Source: Taibaiella sp. (GTDB taxonomy: Bacteria > Bacteroidota > Bacteroidia > Chitinophagales > Chitinophagaceae). From it: a stretch of DNA of 64,000 nt. The DNA lies in the NCBI GenBank assembly GCA_016786705.1, contig JAEUVV010000011.1, positions 1-64,000 on the forward strand, in the 5' to 3' direction. Below, piece after piece: positions 30,683-53,738 of this stretch. The position numbers were made by a program, and so were the translations under genes. The notes beneath the pieces were generated by a model. That model was given only the letters and a program-made list of their open reading frames with translations, ran no database searches and was not told the origin of the DNA. Each line of letters begins with the position of its first letter. Position 1 is the stretch's first letter.

Positions 30683-31150
30683 AACGATGCTGACAGGCTT
30701 GGCCATAAAAAGCAACTGGAGGCACAAATTGAAAAGAAAAAAGATAGTATAAATACTACTAGATTATAAACTTGCCAATGGTAGTATTAATGATGAGAAT
30801 TACGCTCGCATAATACGCAAGCTTAATAATGACTTGAACGAACTGGTAATGCTACATTCGCCAAAACCTCACCCGATTTTGATAAATACATTTCTTACAG
30901 TGTTGGGTTAATTAAAAACCTTAGTGAGTATTATAAAAATGCGCTTTCAGAAACCAAAGGCAAACTGATTTGTTTAATATTCCCTGAAATTTTGACAATC
31001 TTTGAAAATCAGTATAAAACCACAAAAACCAACGAAGTTTTTAGCCTAACAAGCAGTATGGGTAAGGCTTTAAAAGAAAACAACCCTGCAAAAATTGCAA
31101 GGCTGTATAGTTTGGCTCTCCCTGCTGGACTTGAACCAGCGACCCCCTGA
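30683..31150 (+). pseudogene. Serine recombinase (integrase) C-terminal remnant
   Basis: Three frames joined by two frameshifts read as one protein end: NDADRLGHKKQLEAQIEKKK (30683 on), KLANGSINDENYARIIRKLN (30768 on), and DFDKYISYSVGLIKNLSEYY then ETKGKLICLIFPEI and YKTTKTNEVFSL (30875 on). This is the coiled coil and tail of large serine recombinases of Bacteroidota. The frame runs into the tRNA and ends LPAGLEPATP, the familiar tail of recombinases that integrate at tRNA 3' ends. The catalytic N-terminal domain is gone. It is on the opposite strand to the other island genes. Confidence 0.8.
31111..31128. repeat. Right attachment site (tRNA-Asn 3' end)
   Basis: TTTGGCTCTCCCTGCTGG, identical to 24286-24303. 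It forms the 3' end of the intact tRNA-Asn 1. Confidence 0.85.
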
Positions 31151-31189
31151 TTAACAGTCAGGTGCTCTAACCAACTGAGCTAAGGAAGA
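31113..31189 (-). tRNA. tRNA-Asn (GTT) 1
   Basis: Read on the minus strand: acceptor TCTTCCT pairs with AGGGAGA; D arm GCTCAGTTGGTTAGAGC; anticodon stem CCTGA/TCAGG with loop CTGTTAA (anticodon GTT); T arm GCTGG/CCAGC with TTCAAGT; discriminator G and an encoded CCA. It is the integration target of the island. The second tRNA-Asn at 31357 is the same in the body but lacks an encoded CCA. Confidence 0.95.
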
Positions 31190-31356: not shown

Positions 31357-31430
31357 CTCTCCCTGCTGGACTTGAACCAGCGACCCCCTGATTAACAGTC
31401 AGGTGCTCTAACCAACTGAGCTAAGGAAGA
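31357..31430 (-). tRNA. tRNA-Asn (GTT) 2
   Basis: Same body as tRNA-Asn 1 (TCTTCCT acceptor, GTT anticodon, AGGGAGA and discriminator G). CCA is not encoded (GCAG follows), so it must be added after transcription. It has its own promoter and terminator. Confidence 0.95.
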
Positions 31431-48238: not shown

Positions 48239-48985
48239 TTACTGTTCCAGCATAAATGCTGTTTTCATCTGTAGCCGGCCTTCTTCCCTGGTTAATATTA
48301 CCTCCCATGCTCCCTGTTGTTGAAAACGGGAATTTAATGCTTTAGGTTCCATATAGGCATCCCGCCAAATAGTGACGGGCACCTCGTTCCCTTTTTGTAA
48401 CTGTAGCGCAGGGACATCGGCTTCCAGCCGTATAGTAGCGGTTACAGGGCCATTCTCTTTTTCCGAGCTGTCGATACCGATCAAGCTGACTTTTGCCCAA
48501 CTGCCTGCCATATCCGGAAGAATATATTGCGTAACCATTTTTTTAAAATAGGCCGTATCTGAAAGTTTAGCCAGCCAGAAAGTATCTTTTGCGGTGAAAC
48601 CGGCATTTTCCAGCCAATAAAACATTTCGCCTTCCTGCCCAGGCATGTATGCCGGATCTGCCGTTCCTTTTAACAAGTAATATCCATGTATAGTCCCTGG
48701 CTTCCATGCCACATCATGACTTTCCAGCCAGGCCCTGAACTTTCTTTGGCCAGTTGAGCCCTTATAAAATTTAAGCGGCTCAAATGATACCTCCTGCATG
48801 GTATAGCCCCCTGTAGTATCCAATATCTTTGTGTTTCCCACCCGTACCAGGCATACCAGATCGGCAGTAGCATAATCGCTAAGATTATTCGCATAATACC
48901 AGGTACTGTCCTTATCCTGCGCGCCGGCACGGAAGCCAGATAAAATAAAGACCGTAGCCGCAAAAGCTACTCTTTTAAACATCAT
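48239..48985 (-). CDS. Secreted hypothetical protein downstream of the sigma-54 regulator
   Basis: About 248 residues; ATG 48985 (MMFKRVAFAATVFILSGFRA) is preferred, with 48994 or 48982 possible. Signal peptide ends near GAQ. The body has beta-rich stretches (WYYANNLSDYATADLVCLVR, FKPL-like FEPLKFYKG, WKPGTIHGYYLLKG) and no known family. It overlaps the sigma-54 response regulator gene by about 11 nt, so both are co-translated; it may be part of that signalling unit. Confidence 0.7.
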   Translation of the reverse strand: MMFKRVAFAATVFILSGFRAGAQDKDSTWYYANNLSDYATADLVCLVRVGNTKILDTTGGYTMQEVSFEPLKFYKGSTGQRKFRAWLESHDVAWKPGTIHGYYLLKGTADPAYMPGQEGEMFYWLENAGFTAKDTFWLAKLSDTAYFKKMVTQYILPDMAGSWAKVSLIGIDSSEKENGPVTATIRLEADVPALQLQKGNEVPVTIWRDAYMEPKALNSRFQQQGAWEVILTREEGRLQMKTAFMLEQ

Positions 48986-50342
48986 CAATTCCATATTTCG
49001 CCAGCTTATTATATAAGGTAGTGCGATCGATATTTAGTAATTTAGCCGCTTTTGACTTATTGTATTTTGTTTCTGCCAGGGTTTTAATGATCAGCTCTTT
49101 TTCTGTTTGCTGTTGTAAAGCCTTAAGGTCTGCGGTGGCCTCCAGCTCCTGGTGGTCCATGAGGGAAAGCTCCATATCTTCGGGCAATTCCATACGGGTG
49201 ATGAGGTCGCCCTGCGTCAGCAGTACGGCACGCTTGATAATATTTTTCAGTTCCCGGATATTACCCGGCCATTGATACTGCATAAAGATCTTACGCACTT
49301 CAGGATCAACCCCTCTCACCTGCTTTTGCAATTCCTGGTTTGATTTTTGAATAAAGTACCGGATAAATTCATCAATATCCTCTCTGCGTTCTCTTAATGC
49401 CGGTATCTTAATTTTAAATTCATTGATCCTGTGGTACAGGTCTTCCCGGAAGCTGGCGTTCTGGATCGCAGATTTAAAATCTTCATTGGTAGCCGTTACC
49501 AGCCTTACATTCACTTTAATCACCTTATGGCTACCCACAGGCACTACTTCTCTTTGCTCTATGGCGCGCAGTAGTTTTACCTGTACATCATAGCTCAGGT
49601 TACCTACTTCATCCAGGAAAATAGTTCCGCCGTTAGCCAGCTCAAAGATGCCTGTTTTATCAATAATAGCGCCGGTAAAGGCCCCTTTGACATGACCGAA
49701 AAGCTCCGAGGCCGCAAGTTCAGAAGACAGGGCGCCACAATCTACCGCGATAAAGGGTTTCGAGGCCCGTTTGCTGCTGTCGTGGAGGGCACGGGCAATG
49801 TGCTCTTTCCCGGTACCGCTTTCGCCGTTAATCAACACCGACATTTCCGTTTGCGCGACCAGCGCTACGTGTTGATGGAGTACCTGGGCGGCGTCTGAAG
49901 TTCCTTTTACAAAAGCGCTTTTAGTTACGGGCTTTTCTTCGGTTGCCACTTTAGGCGTTTCCGGAGCACTGCCAAGCGGTTCGGCAGGCCTGGCATTTTT
50001 GAGCAGCATTAAGAGCTCTTCCTGGTTGATCGGTTTGGTAATGTATTCATAGGCCCCCTTCTTGATACACTGAACAGCTACTTTAACATCATTAAAGCTG
50101 GTCATCATAATCACCGGGATCTTTATATTGTGCTGGATTTTAAAATCCAGTAAATCCAGCCCGTTGCCATCAGGCAGCCTGTAGTCTAACAGCATTGCCT
50201 GGAATTCCTTATCCTTGTTCAGTACAGCCTTGGCCTGTTCTATATTATGCGTTAATACCACCTCGTAACCATGCCGGCTAAGATATCGCTCCAATATCTG
50301 TGCAAAGGTGATATCATCTTCGGTAATAAGCACTCTATCCAT
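48975..50342 (-). CDS. Sigma-54-dependent response regulator (NtrC type)
   Basis: 455 residues: receiver domain (1-120; acceptor Asp53 in MLLDYRLPDGNG), AAA+ domain (~140-380) with Walker A GESGTGKE, the sigma-54 contact loop GAFTGA, and Walker B GGTIFLDEVGNL, and a Fis-type helix-turn-helix (NKSKAAKLLNIDRTTLYNKL) at the end. It should activate promoters of RpoN holoenzyme. A hybrid histidine kinase, a PepSY-like gene with a sigma-54 promoter and two copies of a palindrome lie directly upstream. Confidence 0.93.
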   Translation of the reverse strand: MDRVLITEDDITFAQILERYLSRHGYEVVLTHNIEQAKAVLNKDKEFQAMLLDYRLPDGNGLDLLDFKIQHNIKIPVIMMTSFNDVKVAVQCIKKGAYEYITKPINQEELLMLLKNARPAEPLGSAPETPKVATEEKPVTKSAFVKGTSDAAQVLHQHVALVAQTEMSVLINGESGTGKEHIARALHDSSKRASKPFIAVDCGALSSELAASELFGHVKGAFTGAIIDKTGIFELANGGTIFLDEVGNLSYDVQVKLLRAIEQREVVPVGSHKVIKVNVRLVTATNEDFKSAIQNASFREDLYHRINEFKIKIPALRERREDIDEFIRYFIQKSNQELQKQVRGVDPEVRKIFMQYQWPGNIRELKNIIKRAVLLTQGDLITRMELPEDMELSLMDHQELEATADLKALQQQTEKELIIKTLAETKYNKSKAAKLLNIDRTTLYNKLAKYGIDDV

Positions 50343-50379
50343 ATAATTAAAGGTACGTATTTAAAAACTACTAAAAAAA

Positions 50380-50407
50380 CGAAAGCCACCCTTGAGAGGT
50401 GGCTTCG
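50380..50407. terminator. Strong hairpin with T runs on both strands
   Basis: CGAAAGCCACC and GGTGGCTTCG pair (one bulged A). On the minus strand the stem is followed by CGTTTTTTTAG, so it can end a transcript coming from the sigma-54-like promoter at 50556-50570 before the regulator gene at 50342. On the plus strand T runs follow as well. Confidence 0.75.
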
Positions 50408-50481
50408 TTTTCCCTTTTTTTGTTTGTTTTAGTCGCGATGTATGAAGATGAAAAAACTTGATTCAAATTAATACGCCGGGT

Positions 50482-50544
50482 AAAAAATCAGACTATAACC
50501 GTTTAAGATTATAGCCTGACTTTAAAATTTATAACCTTAACGTG
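50482..50544 (-). ncRNA. Candidate sigma-54-driven small RNA (~63 nt)
   Basis: A start is predicted 12 nt past the -12 element of the promoter at 50556-50570. On the minus strand TCAGGCTATAA and TTATAGTCTGA form a stem, followed by TTTTTT at 50482-50487: an intrinsic terminator only ~60 nt from the start. No reading frame fits. Read-through would reach the next terminator at 50380-50407 (~170 nt). It could instead be an attenuated leader of the regulator gene. Confidence 0.4.
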
Positions 50545-50555
50545 AATAGTATAGT

Positions 50556-50570
50556 ACCATAACTGTGCCA
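50556..50570 (-). promoter_or_regulatory. Putative sigma-54 promoter B
   Basis: Minus-strand TGGCACAGTTATGGT: the -24 box TGGCAC is perfect; the -12 box is TGGT in place of TTGC (G kept, C changed to T). A palindrome lies 76 nt upstream, as at promoter A. Confidence 0.5.
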
Positions 50571-50646
50571 AAAATAAAAAATAAACACAAATAATTAATT
50601 ATCAATTACTTATCTTTTTTAAAGAAATTTATGGCAGGCATAAAAA

Positions 50647-50663
50647 TGTTGAAAACATCAACA
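50647..50663. promoter_or_regulatory. Palindromic operator B (TGTTGA-N5-TCAACA)
   Basis: TGTTGAAAACATCAACA, inverted 6-bp arms around a 5-nt spacer. The 18-mer ATGTTGAAAACATCAACA is identical at 51257-51274. It is 76 nt upstream of the sigma-54-like promoter B. It is the likely binding site of the neighbouring NtrC-type regulator. Confidence 0.6.
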
Positions 50664-50725
50664 ATCTGTAGAAAGTGTAGAGAAAACCACACACATTACA
50701 CGGCATAACATCTGCTAAAAAAGTA

Positions 50726-50755
50726 AAGACCAGCCTTTAAAAAAAGGCCGGTCTT
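50726..50755 (-). terminator. Terminator after the PepSY-like gene
   Basis: AAGACCGGCCTTT and AAAGGCTGGTCTT (minus strand) pair with one mismatch, followed by TACTTTTTTAG. It lies 57 nt past the stop of the gene at 50812. Confidence 0.75.
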
Positions 50756-50811
50756 CCGATTTTGAGTTTAATCTACTATGTTGAAAAACTTAATTATTAA
50801 TTGATTTCCGT

Positions 50812-51117
50812 TTATTGAGCGATTTGCTTACCATCTGCACTAAAATGTAATACCTCGGTTTTGTCTGCTCTTTTACCGGAAACTTCATAGATTACCTGTG
50901 TACCACTTTGAATAATTGTTGCAGACTCAGCTTTAAAATCCTTAAACGCGTCTGAAGTTAAAGTCGTTTTAACGGCATCAGGCAGTTCATCTAAAGTGAT
51001 TGCTTTTTTAGCATCTTTAACTTGTTCCTGCGCGATAATGGTTTCGTTTGCATTAACTACTGTAGACATTCCCAAAACTAATGCTGAGCTCAGCATCACT
51101 ACAAATAATTTTTTCAT
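50812..51117 (-). CDS. Small secreted PepSY-like protein
   Basis: 101 residues from ATG 51117: signal peptide (MKKLFVVMLSSALVLGMSTVVNA), then one PepSY-like repeat (ITLDELPDAVKTTLTSDAFK, VIYEVSGKRADKTEVLHFSA, DGKQI). Such small periplasmic domains are found as inhibitors or sensor partners. A sigma-54-like promoter (51168-51182) and a palindrome upstream, and a hybrid kinase and a sigma-54 regulator on either side, suggest that it is the output or feedback component of that system. Confidence 0.8.
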   Translation of the reverse strand: MKKLFVVMLSSALVLGMSTVVNANETIIAQEQVKDAKKAITLDELPDAVKTTLTSDAFKDFKAESATIIQSGTQVIYEVSGKRADKTEVLHFSADGKQIAQ

Positions 51118-51257: not shown

Positions 51258-51274
51258 TGTTGAAAACATCAACA
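51258..51274. promoter_or_regulatory. Palindromic operator A (TGTTGA-N5-TCAACA)
   Basis: Identical to 50647-50663 and placed at almost the same distance from a sigma-54-like promoter (75 nt against 76). This is the usual position of an upstream activator site for NtrC-type proteins. Confidence 0.65.
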
Positions 51275-51299: not shown

Positions 51300-53738
51300 T
51301 CAGGACTGCAACAAGCGCGCAATATCCTGCACCAGGTCATTGATGGCCTGCTCGTCATACTGGCCTTTTCTTAGCTGTAGCTCCTGGATGCGCGCCTGCC
51401 TCCCCTCGGTAGTATACCCTAACTGTGACAACCTGGAAGCCAGCTTATGGAATATCTCGGATAGCTGCTGGGCTTCTGCCGCCCGGTTATGGGATTGAAT
51501 CAGGTCAATGTCTGCCCGGGTTTCCTTTTTGAACAGGTCCATAATATGGTCACCTTCTACGACCGGGGGCCTTTCCGGCTTCAGTACGGGGTCCGGTAAA
51601 GCAATACCTATGGTAAGCAGCAATTCTTCTACTACGAAGGGTTTGCGGACCAAAGCATCAAAACCCGCCGCAAAGATATCCCCGACCTCCTCTGGTAACA
51701 CCTGCGCGGTGAGTGCGACAAACTGTACCTCCTGGGCGTTCCTCACTTTGACTTTCATCATTTTCACGAGCTCCATGCCCGAGTATTCAGGCATCCGGAT
51801 GTCCATCAATACATGGCTGAGCAGCTCAGGCACCGGCTCTTCCAGCAGGTCTTTCGCACTATAGAAGAGCTTATATTCAATATTATGTTTCTTCAGTACC
51901 TCGGCGCAGAGCTCCAGGATGAAACTGTCGTCATCTATTACCCAGACCAGTCCTGGCGGCGCTTTAGCCAGCGCGTTCTGACTATACGCTGCTGTAGCCT
52001 GGCCGGCATCATTTAAAGCATAAGGTATCAACACAGAGAAAGTAGCACCTGCATTGGGCGCGGAATCTACTTTTATATTTCCCCCCTGTAGTTCCACTAA
52101 CGCTTTTACAATAGTTAAGCCCAGGCCGCTTCCCTGGCTGAGCTGCTCGGTAGGCGCCTGCTCAAACTCATTAAAGATCCGGTCCTGGTCCGGTTGGGAA
52201 ATCCCGATCCCCGTATCTCTTACTTCAAAAGTAAAATGCGCCTTATCGCCCGCATTGGCTTCCGTAATTTTTAAGCCTATACTCCCTGTATTAGTAAACT
52301 TTACCGCATTATTCAGGAGGTTGAGCAATATCTGTTTTAAGCGGAAGGGATCACCATAGACCGTCCTGTTTTGCTCAGACAGTTCGATATTTTTTTCAAA
52401 CACCAGTTTTTTACGCTGCGCCTGTATCGCGATAATATCTACTACCTGCTCTACTACCGATAAAAGATTGAACGGCTTGCAGGTGATCACAAACTTATCT
52501 GAATTAATACGGTTAAAATCCAGGATCTCGTTTACAATATGCAAAAGGTGCAAAGAAGACTGGTGTACCACCCCTAAAAATTTCCGCTGGTTTTGAGTGT
52601 CTTCTTCTCTTTGTACCAGCTCAGTGTAGCCGATGATCGATTGCAGGGGCGTTCTTATCTCGTGGCTCATATTCGACAAAAACCGCTGCTTAATACGCCC
52701 GGCTTCATCAGCGTCTTCTTTAGCAAGGATCAATGCTTTACGATAACGATTGCTGCGGGCAATATCATTAAAGATAAGCCCGGCGAGCACAATGCTTAAT
52801 ATGACAAAAGAAATAAGCAATACCCTGTTGGTCTGCAAACCGGACTCAATAATGTCTGCGGCTTCTTTGTTATTATTGTAATTATCAATTTTAGCCGCGC
52901 TTTCTATTTCGTTTAAGGTAAGCAGAAACTGGTTGATCAATAAGGTACCGGCTGTATCCAGCTGCAGCCGCTTGGCATTCAACTGCCTGAGCTGGGCGCT
53001 GCGCTTGGACTCAATCTGGCTTATAGAAGCCCCGAAACGGGAAATAGCCTTGTTATCTTCTTTCAACAATTGGGTATCTACCGCAATTAGCTTTTCTTCC
53101 TGGGTGTGCTGGGTAACGGTTGGCTCAACCGTGGGCTGCTCTTTTTTTCGGCCCCAAAGTTTATCCCAGAAATTCCTTTTCTCGGGCGGTAACGTATCTT
53201 CCCGGGTAACCGTAGTAGTGGTGACCGATTTTACTTCTTTCAGCAACTTAGAAGATTCCGGCTGGCTGATCGCGCTTTCTTTATTGATAAAAGTGGTCAG
53301 GCGTCTTACCTGGTTACCCAGGGTATCATTCCCTTTAAAATCCCGGTTCAATTTTACATACTGCTCAAAAAGCATGATCTTTTTGGTCAGCAGCTCTTTC
53401 ATCAGGATAATACGTGCTGCCTGGTCGGGGCTGGCATTGACCAGGGTGCCAAGGCGGTCCAGGTCAGCGCCTATCTTTTCGGCATGGTCAAAAAAAGAGT
53501 CCAGCACCTGGCTGTTAACCTGGCCGCTTAAGGTGCGCTGCATAATGTCCAGCTTGGTCACATCTTTAAAGATCGTGTTCACCAGTGCCAGCGGCGGATA
53601 AGGATCTGATAGTTTGCGTACCGGTTCCGAAATTTTCTTAAAATTATATTCTGTCAGGCGCCAAAACAACAGCACGACAATGAGCGCAACGCCCAGGGTC
53701 AGGGTAATTTTCAGCAGCAGGGAATTTTTATATTTCAT
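51300..53738 (-). CDS. Hybrid sensor histidine kinase with receiver and Hpt domains
   Basis: 812 residues: membrane segment near residues 8-28, a long periplasmic helical region (30-305), a second membrane segment (~308-328), HisKA with His359 in FLSNMSHEIRTPL, HATPase (GSGLGLTIVKAL), receiver with Asp646 in LMDIRMPEYSG, and a C-terminal Hpt-like helix with His764 in IFHKLASRLSQLG. The whole relay is in one protein, and its likely final target is the sigma-54 regulator at 48975-50342. The gene for the PepSY-like protein lies between them. No promoter of the sigma-54 type seen for the kinase itself. Confidence 0.9.
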   Translation of the reverse strand: MKYKNSLLLKITLTLGVALIVVLLFWRLTEYNFKKISEPVRKLSDPYPPLALVNTIFKDVTKLDIMQRTLSGQVNSQVLDSFFDHAEKIGADLDRLGTLVNASPDQAARIILMKELLTKKIMLFEQYVKLNRDFKGNDTLGNQVRRLTTFINKESAISQPESSKLLKEVKSVTTTTVTREDTLPPEKRNFWDKLWGRKKEQPTVEPTVTQHTQEEKLIAVDTQLLKEDNKAISRFGASISQIESKRSAQLRQLNAKRLQLDTAGTLLINQFLLTLNEIESAAKIDNYNNNKEAADIIESGLQTNRVLLISFVILSIVLAGLIFNDIARSNRYRKALILAKEDADEAGRIKQRFLSNMSHEIRTPLQSIIGYTELVQREEDTQNQRKFLGVVHQSSLHLLHIVNEILDFNRINSDKFVITCKPFNLLSVVEQVVDIIAIQAQRKKLVFEKNIELSEQNRTVYGDPFRLKQILLNLLNNAVKFTNTGSIGLKITEANAGDKAHFTFEVRDTGIGISQPDQDRIFNEFEQAPTEQLSQGSGLGLTIVKALVELQGGNIKVDSAPNAGATFSVLIPYALNDAGQATAAYSQNALAKAPPGLVWVIDDDSFILELCAEVLKKHNIEYKLFYSAKDLLEEPVPELLSHVLMDIRMPEYSGMELVKMMKVKVRNAQEVQFVALTAQVLPEEVGDIFAAGFDALVRKPFVVEELLLTIGIALPDPVLKPERPPVVEGDHIMDLFKKETRADIDLIQSHNRAAEAQQLSEIFHKLASRLSQLGYTTEGRQARIQELQLRKGQYDEQAINDLVQDIARLLQS

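Follow-up and report, generated by a model that had tools for sequence, protein, structure and literature searches.

The window, a stretch of 64,000 nucleotides from contig JAEUVV010000011.1 of a Taibaiella sp. assembly (GCA_016786705.1), includes a locus on the minus strand in which a kinase gene is followed by promoter A with its palindrome, the gene for a PepSY-like protein, a terminator, a second copy of the palindrome, promoter B, two hairpins (T1 and T2), and a regulator gene. Listed in this order, the features are as follows.

51300-53738, minus strand: hybrid histidine kinase with HisKA, HATPase_c, receiver, and weak Hpt domains
51258-51274, minus strand: enhancer palindrome of promoter A, from exact matches in the genome
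51167-51182, minus strand: promoter A, sigma-54 type, TGGCATAGTCTTGGCA, from the ranking of sigma-54-like sites in the window
50812-51117, minus strand: small exported PepSY-like protein of 101 aa
50725-50756, minus strand: terminator of the PepSY-like gene, between that gene and promoter B
50664-50690, minus strand: possible additional activator site for promoter B (23/27 positions identical in the relative G004)
50647-50663, minus strand: enhancer palindrome of promoter B, TGTTGATGTTTTCAACA, from exact matches in the genome
50555-50570, minus strand: promoter B, sigma-54 type, TGGCACAGTTATGGTA, with GT at -12, from the ranking of sigma-54-like sites
50482-50544, minus strand: predicted small RNA of about 63 nt, from its fold, near-identity in G004, and absence of start codons
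50373-50455, minus strand: block 2, 83 bp, ending in T2 and seven U (83/83 identical in G004)
50348-50355, minus strand: housekeeping-type -7 element of the regulator gene, TACCTTTA
48975-50342, minus strand: NtrC-type response regulator that presumably activates promoters A and B; it has receiver, sigma-54 activator, and HTH_8 domains

The sigma factor RpoN (sigma-54) is encoded both in this genome (G000) and in G004, a metagenome-assembled genome named 'Bacteroidetes bacterium 43-16'. No Pfam family matched the small exported protein at E values of up to 1, and 'PepSY-like' is a name given by resemblance only. Modules in which an exported PepSY-like protein, often with a sigma-54-like promoter and a palindrome, precedes an NtrC-type regulator occur in several genera (loci L052, L053, L054, L061, L062, L063, L064, and L066). 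Part of the 3' UTR of the PepSY-like gene (50753-50792, minus strand) is a 40-bp exact match to the relative, more than one would expect from the coding part of this gene; it is conceivable that a 3'-end-derived RNA arises from it.

Of all sigma-54-like sites in the window, promoters A and B score highest, in that order. Promoter B reads TTTGGCACAGTTATGGTACT on the minus strand, with TGGCAC beginning at 50570 and a predicted transcription start at about 50544; the elements are spaced GG-N10-GT and lie at the right distance ahead of the predicted RNA. Taken alone, promoter B is a moderate match by its letters (about 20th of 1697 intergenic candidates under a simple score, with 1.66 Mb of the genome scanned), and it carries GT at -12, where sigma-54 promoters usually have GC. 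The same GT is present in the relative's promoter A (CTGGCATGGTCTTGGTAA) and in the orthologous promoter of another genus (TTGGCACAGTAATGGTTC), so this deviation appears to be tolerated. What singles promoter B out and makes it credible is the enhancer palindrome, not the promoter score. Across the 4.08 Mb of this genome, the exact 17-bp palindrome TGTTGATGTTTTCAACA is found in only two places, 76 bp upstream of promoter A and 77 bp upstream of promoter B. Given the shared palindrome and the equal spacing, both promoters very probably answer to one activator, the regulator encoded at the locus, which is predicted to bind there.

Some other genera also have palindromes resembling TGTTGATGTTTTCAACA ahead of their PepSY-like gene, among them a perfect TGTTG-N7-CAACA in G036. 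Three near-copies with one or two mismatches (G000:C1:8815, 15600, and 22049) fall within 14 kb of a single 39-kb contig. None of the near-copies checked, these three included, is accompanied by a sigma-54 site that matches promoters A and B in strength and spacing.

A transcript from promoter B would reach the terminator T1, a 17-bp hairpin (50519-50488) followed by six U (50487-50482), after about 63 nt. The predicted RNA is unpaired at its 5' end and closes with a stable hairpin at its 3' end; its folding energy of -20.0 kcal/mol (z = -6.2) was reached by 0 of 200 shuffles. It contains no ATG, GTG, or TTG on the minus strand. A first-pass annotation of this DNA, made from the letters and a list of reading frames, had placed promoter B, the T1 stem, the six T, and the distance of about 63 nt to the terminator correctly, and its remark that no reading frame fits here is borne out by the missing start codons. 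Screening the window with all 4227 Rfam families, which cover the GlmZ, CrcZ, and Qrr types, brought only two tRNAs to the gathering score, and no score came near the thresholds at the 63-nt RNA. Hfq (PF17209) is absent from both G000 and G004, so the RNA is not expected to be an Hfq-dependent small RNA.

The same annotation had proposed conservation in relatives as a check, and the RNA proved to be near-identical in G004, the sole other carrier found. BLAST over 196 genomes gave no homologues beyond G004, and covariance models built for the RNA and for block 2, whose E-values are rough, recovered only the two known loci among 394 genomes of the family; the weaker matches that were inspected looked like ordinary terminators or chance. 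Between the two genomes, the 63-nt RNA is identical save for one loop base and one tail U. Extending the comparison upstream through promoter B (91 bp in all) adds a single difference, a base upstream of -24, for a total of three. The unpaired 5' part of the RNA is identical at 22/22 positions, and the stems of T1 and T2 are the same in both genomes. By comparison, the regulator and kinase genes are identical at only 44% and 37% of their four-fold degenerate sites, respectively.

When 130 kb of the relative's contig were searched for exact matches to the window, block 2 headed the list with 83 bp; the two regions with tRNA genes came next (81 and 79 bp), and the promoter B to T1 stretch was fourth (69 bp). 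The 63-nt RNA thus is, as judged from these alignments, as unchanged between the two species as their tRNA genes. Those tandem tRNA genes (31116-31189 and 31357-31430, minus strand) have equal Rfam scores, are conserved in the relative like the RNA, and serve as a yardstick of conservation. The spacers have drifted, with 70% identity between the enhancer and promoter B and 58% in the 26 nt that join the RNA and block 2. Because the spacers drifted while the RNA stayed fixed, the conserved stretch coincides with the predicted RNA as a whole, the unpaired 5' part as well as the terminator.

Block 2 is the longest exact match between the window and the relative, exceeding even the tRNA genes. Its hairpin T2 (50406-50382) is followed by CG and seven U, and a 69-nt piece has a z of -5.2. 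The first-pass annotation had seen this hairpin as a second terminator after about 170 nt, ahead of the regulator gene at 50342; the terminator is there, and what had escaped notice is that it belongs to a separate, perfectly conserved block of 83 bp. Judged by its sequence, block 2 may be a second small RNA gene, or promoter B may produce a longer transcript that has block 2 at its 3' end. A conserved TTGA stands in an otherwise drifted stretch 24 nt ahead of TACATCG, and the two motifs form a possible separate weak housekeeping promoter for block 2.

If T1 were partially read through, the functional product could be one RNA of about 170 nt (50544 to 50373), with block 2 as its 3' half. The perfect conservation of block 2 on the same strand, with a terminator at its end, is what such a transcript would look like. 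We consider it unlikely, since the terminator T1 is strong and carries six U, the joint between the two blocks is among the drifted spacers, and the TTGA hints that block 2 may have a weak promoter to itself.

Stacked terminators often insulate genes, and T1 and T2 could on that account merely shield the regulator gene from upstream transcription, with promoter B as an idle copy. Insulation needs a stem and a U-tract, not an unpaired 5' part kept at every position, and it would leave the identity of the A-rich part of block 2 unexplained. The terminator of the PepSY-like gene, by contrast, has changed in the relative, unlike T1 and block 2. We therefore regard pure insulation as highly improbable.

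Promoter B faces the regulator gene, with both hairpins in between. The arrangement would also suit a leader of that gene in which T1 and T2 act as attenuators and the regulator sets its own level, and the first-pass annotation had left the choice between a small RNA and such an attenuated leader undecided. Several observations make the leader quite improbable. A transcript would have to pass two terminators, and the predicted folds contain no antiterminator partner for the T2 arm. The last 30 nt ahead of the regulator ATG are identical at only 8/30 positions. The regulator gene also has a promoter element of its own: of 11 loci, 7 have TAnnTTT(G/A) within 31 nt of the regulator ATG, where shuffled sequence would give 1.2. 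Finally, at eight orthologous loci in seven other genera (G030, G036, G045, G141, G252, G253, G255, and G303), the regulator gene comes directly behind the PepSY-like gene with its terminator, and neither promoter B nor the RNA is present; the order of kinase, PepSY-like, and regulator genes is kept in these loci where it is visible. The promoter element and the loci of other genera together suggest that the regulator is expressed independently of promoter B. A discrete small RNA, favoured by the shared enhancer, the tRNA-like conservation that ends at a terminator, and the lack of a reading frame, is much likelier than a regulator leader. From these comparisons, the RNA unit appears to have been added in this lineage, downstream of the terminator of the PepSY-like gene and upstream of the regulator's own promoter.

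The first-pass annotation had further suggested that the element adds a feedback layer to the circuit. This part found no backing: predicted pairing of the RNA's unpaired 5' end with the kinase, PepSY-like, and regulator mRNAs, and likewise with downstream genes and block 2, was not clearly better than with shuffles. BLAST located several stretches complementary to the RNA directly ahead of start codons elsewhere. We rejected them as a target signal, as a genome-wide scan (1430 genes, about 40% of the genome) gave no enrichment over shuffles; start regions are simply A/T-rich here. The best single site (G000:C7:273254-273270, L128) is perfectly complementary to the RNA's 5' part over 17 nt (-19.6 kcal/mol) and lies just ahead of the start codon in a metallopeptidase-like gene (G000:C7:273283). 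This gene was set aside, as 10% of shuffles reach its score and G004 has no orthologue. A complementary site common to both species, ahead of a gene called DUF4041-like by resemblance only, was likewise set aside because it lies within a generally conserved upstream stretch.

Taken together, we think it probable, with good confidence, that the segment 50544-50482 (minus strand) is a discrete small non-coding RNA gene under the control of sigma-54 and the regulator, and that the regulator gene runs on its own promoter. The sequence itself establishes the anatomy of the locus, the enhancer common to both promoters, the conservation, the presence of sigma-54, and the absence of Hfq, while we infer transcription of the RNA, its control by the regulator of the locus, and its mode of action. 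The neighbouring kinase would phosphorylate the NtrC-type regulator, which would then bind the palindrome at 50647-50663 and probably also the neighbouring site. Once bound, it would activate sigma-54 polymerase at promoter B, as it would at promoter A to express the PepSY-like protein. The transcript would end at T1 as the RNA of about 63 nt, with its unpaired 5' end and stable 3' hairpin, and the regulator gene itself would be transcribed from its housekeeping promoter. By analogy, the likeliest action of the RNA is base-pairing with distant mRNAs, which would proceed without Hfq. The GT at -12, a palindrome at promoter B that is kept at 13/17 positions in G004, the restriction to two carrier genomes, and the lack of a target in the searches above weigh against this explanation.

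A more tentative extension, which we hold possible though with less than even confidence, is that two neighbouring small RNA genes, both as conserved as tRNAs, were acquired by the two-component system in one small lineage. The regulator would switch on one of them through the second enhancer copy, and block 2, the other, would probably be driven by a housekeeping promoter. If so, the module, which otherwise acts on only one evident target, would possess an output arm made of these two RNAs and working without Hfq.

Small RNAs controlled by sigma-54 are classic in gamma-proteobacteria, and the crcZ gene of Pseudomonas adjoins cbrB. CrcZ is under the control of CbrA/CbrB and RpoN and titrates Hfq (PMC4063720). 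The likeness lies in a two-component system whose sigma-54 activator turns on a small RNA; the difference is that Hfq is absent here, and the two RNAs share neither an Rfam match nor a sequence relation. GlmY of Enterobacteria is controlled by QseE/QseF (GlrK/GlrR) and sigma-54 and sequesters RapZ (PMC7073468). There, too, an NtrC-type response regulator acts on a sigma-54 promoter, and the system includes an envelope protein (QseG), but GlmY is unrelated to the present RNA in sequence and in Rfam.

In design, the PepSY-like module is akin to two-component systems with a small periplasmic partner. According to excerpts of the respective papers, ZraR uses sigma-54 for zraP and zraSR in ZraPSR (PMC4987338), and DbfQ binds the sensor domain of its kinase in DbfQRS (PMC12714742); these excerpts differ from the present case in that they describe no small RNA for either module.

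In the literature searched for Bacteroidota, the only example of a small RNA controlled by sigma-54 is a single putative one without an activator. This RNA, Rfp36 of Flavobacterium psychrophilum, is tabled as a putative regulatory RNA under a mapped sigma-54-type promoter, with no activator or function given (PMC9723704). It resembles the RNA described here in phylum and promoter type, compared by description and not by sequence. The class is thus not new to Bacteroidota, as the sigma-54-type start site of Rfp36 has already been mapped. At the Taibaiella locus, the likely activator, the enhancer, the promoter, and the RNA adjoin one another, and the related loci that lack the RNA provide a natural control; together, these allow direct tests of both the proposed circuit and Hfq-independent RNA regulation.
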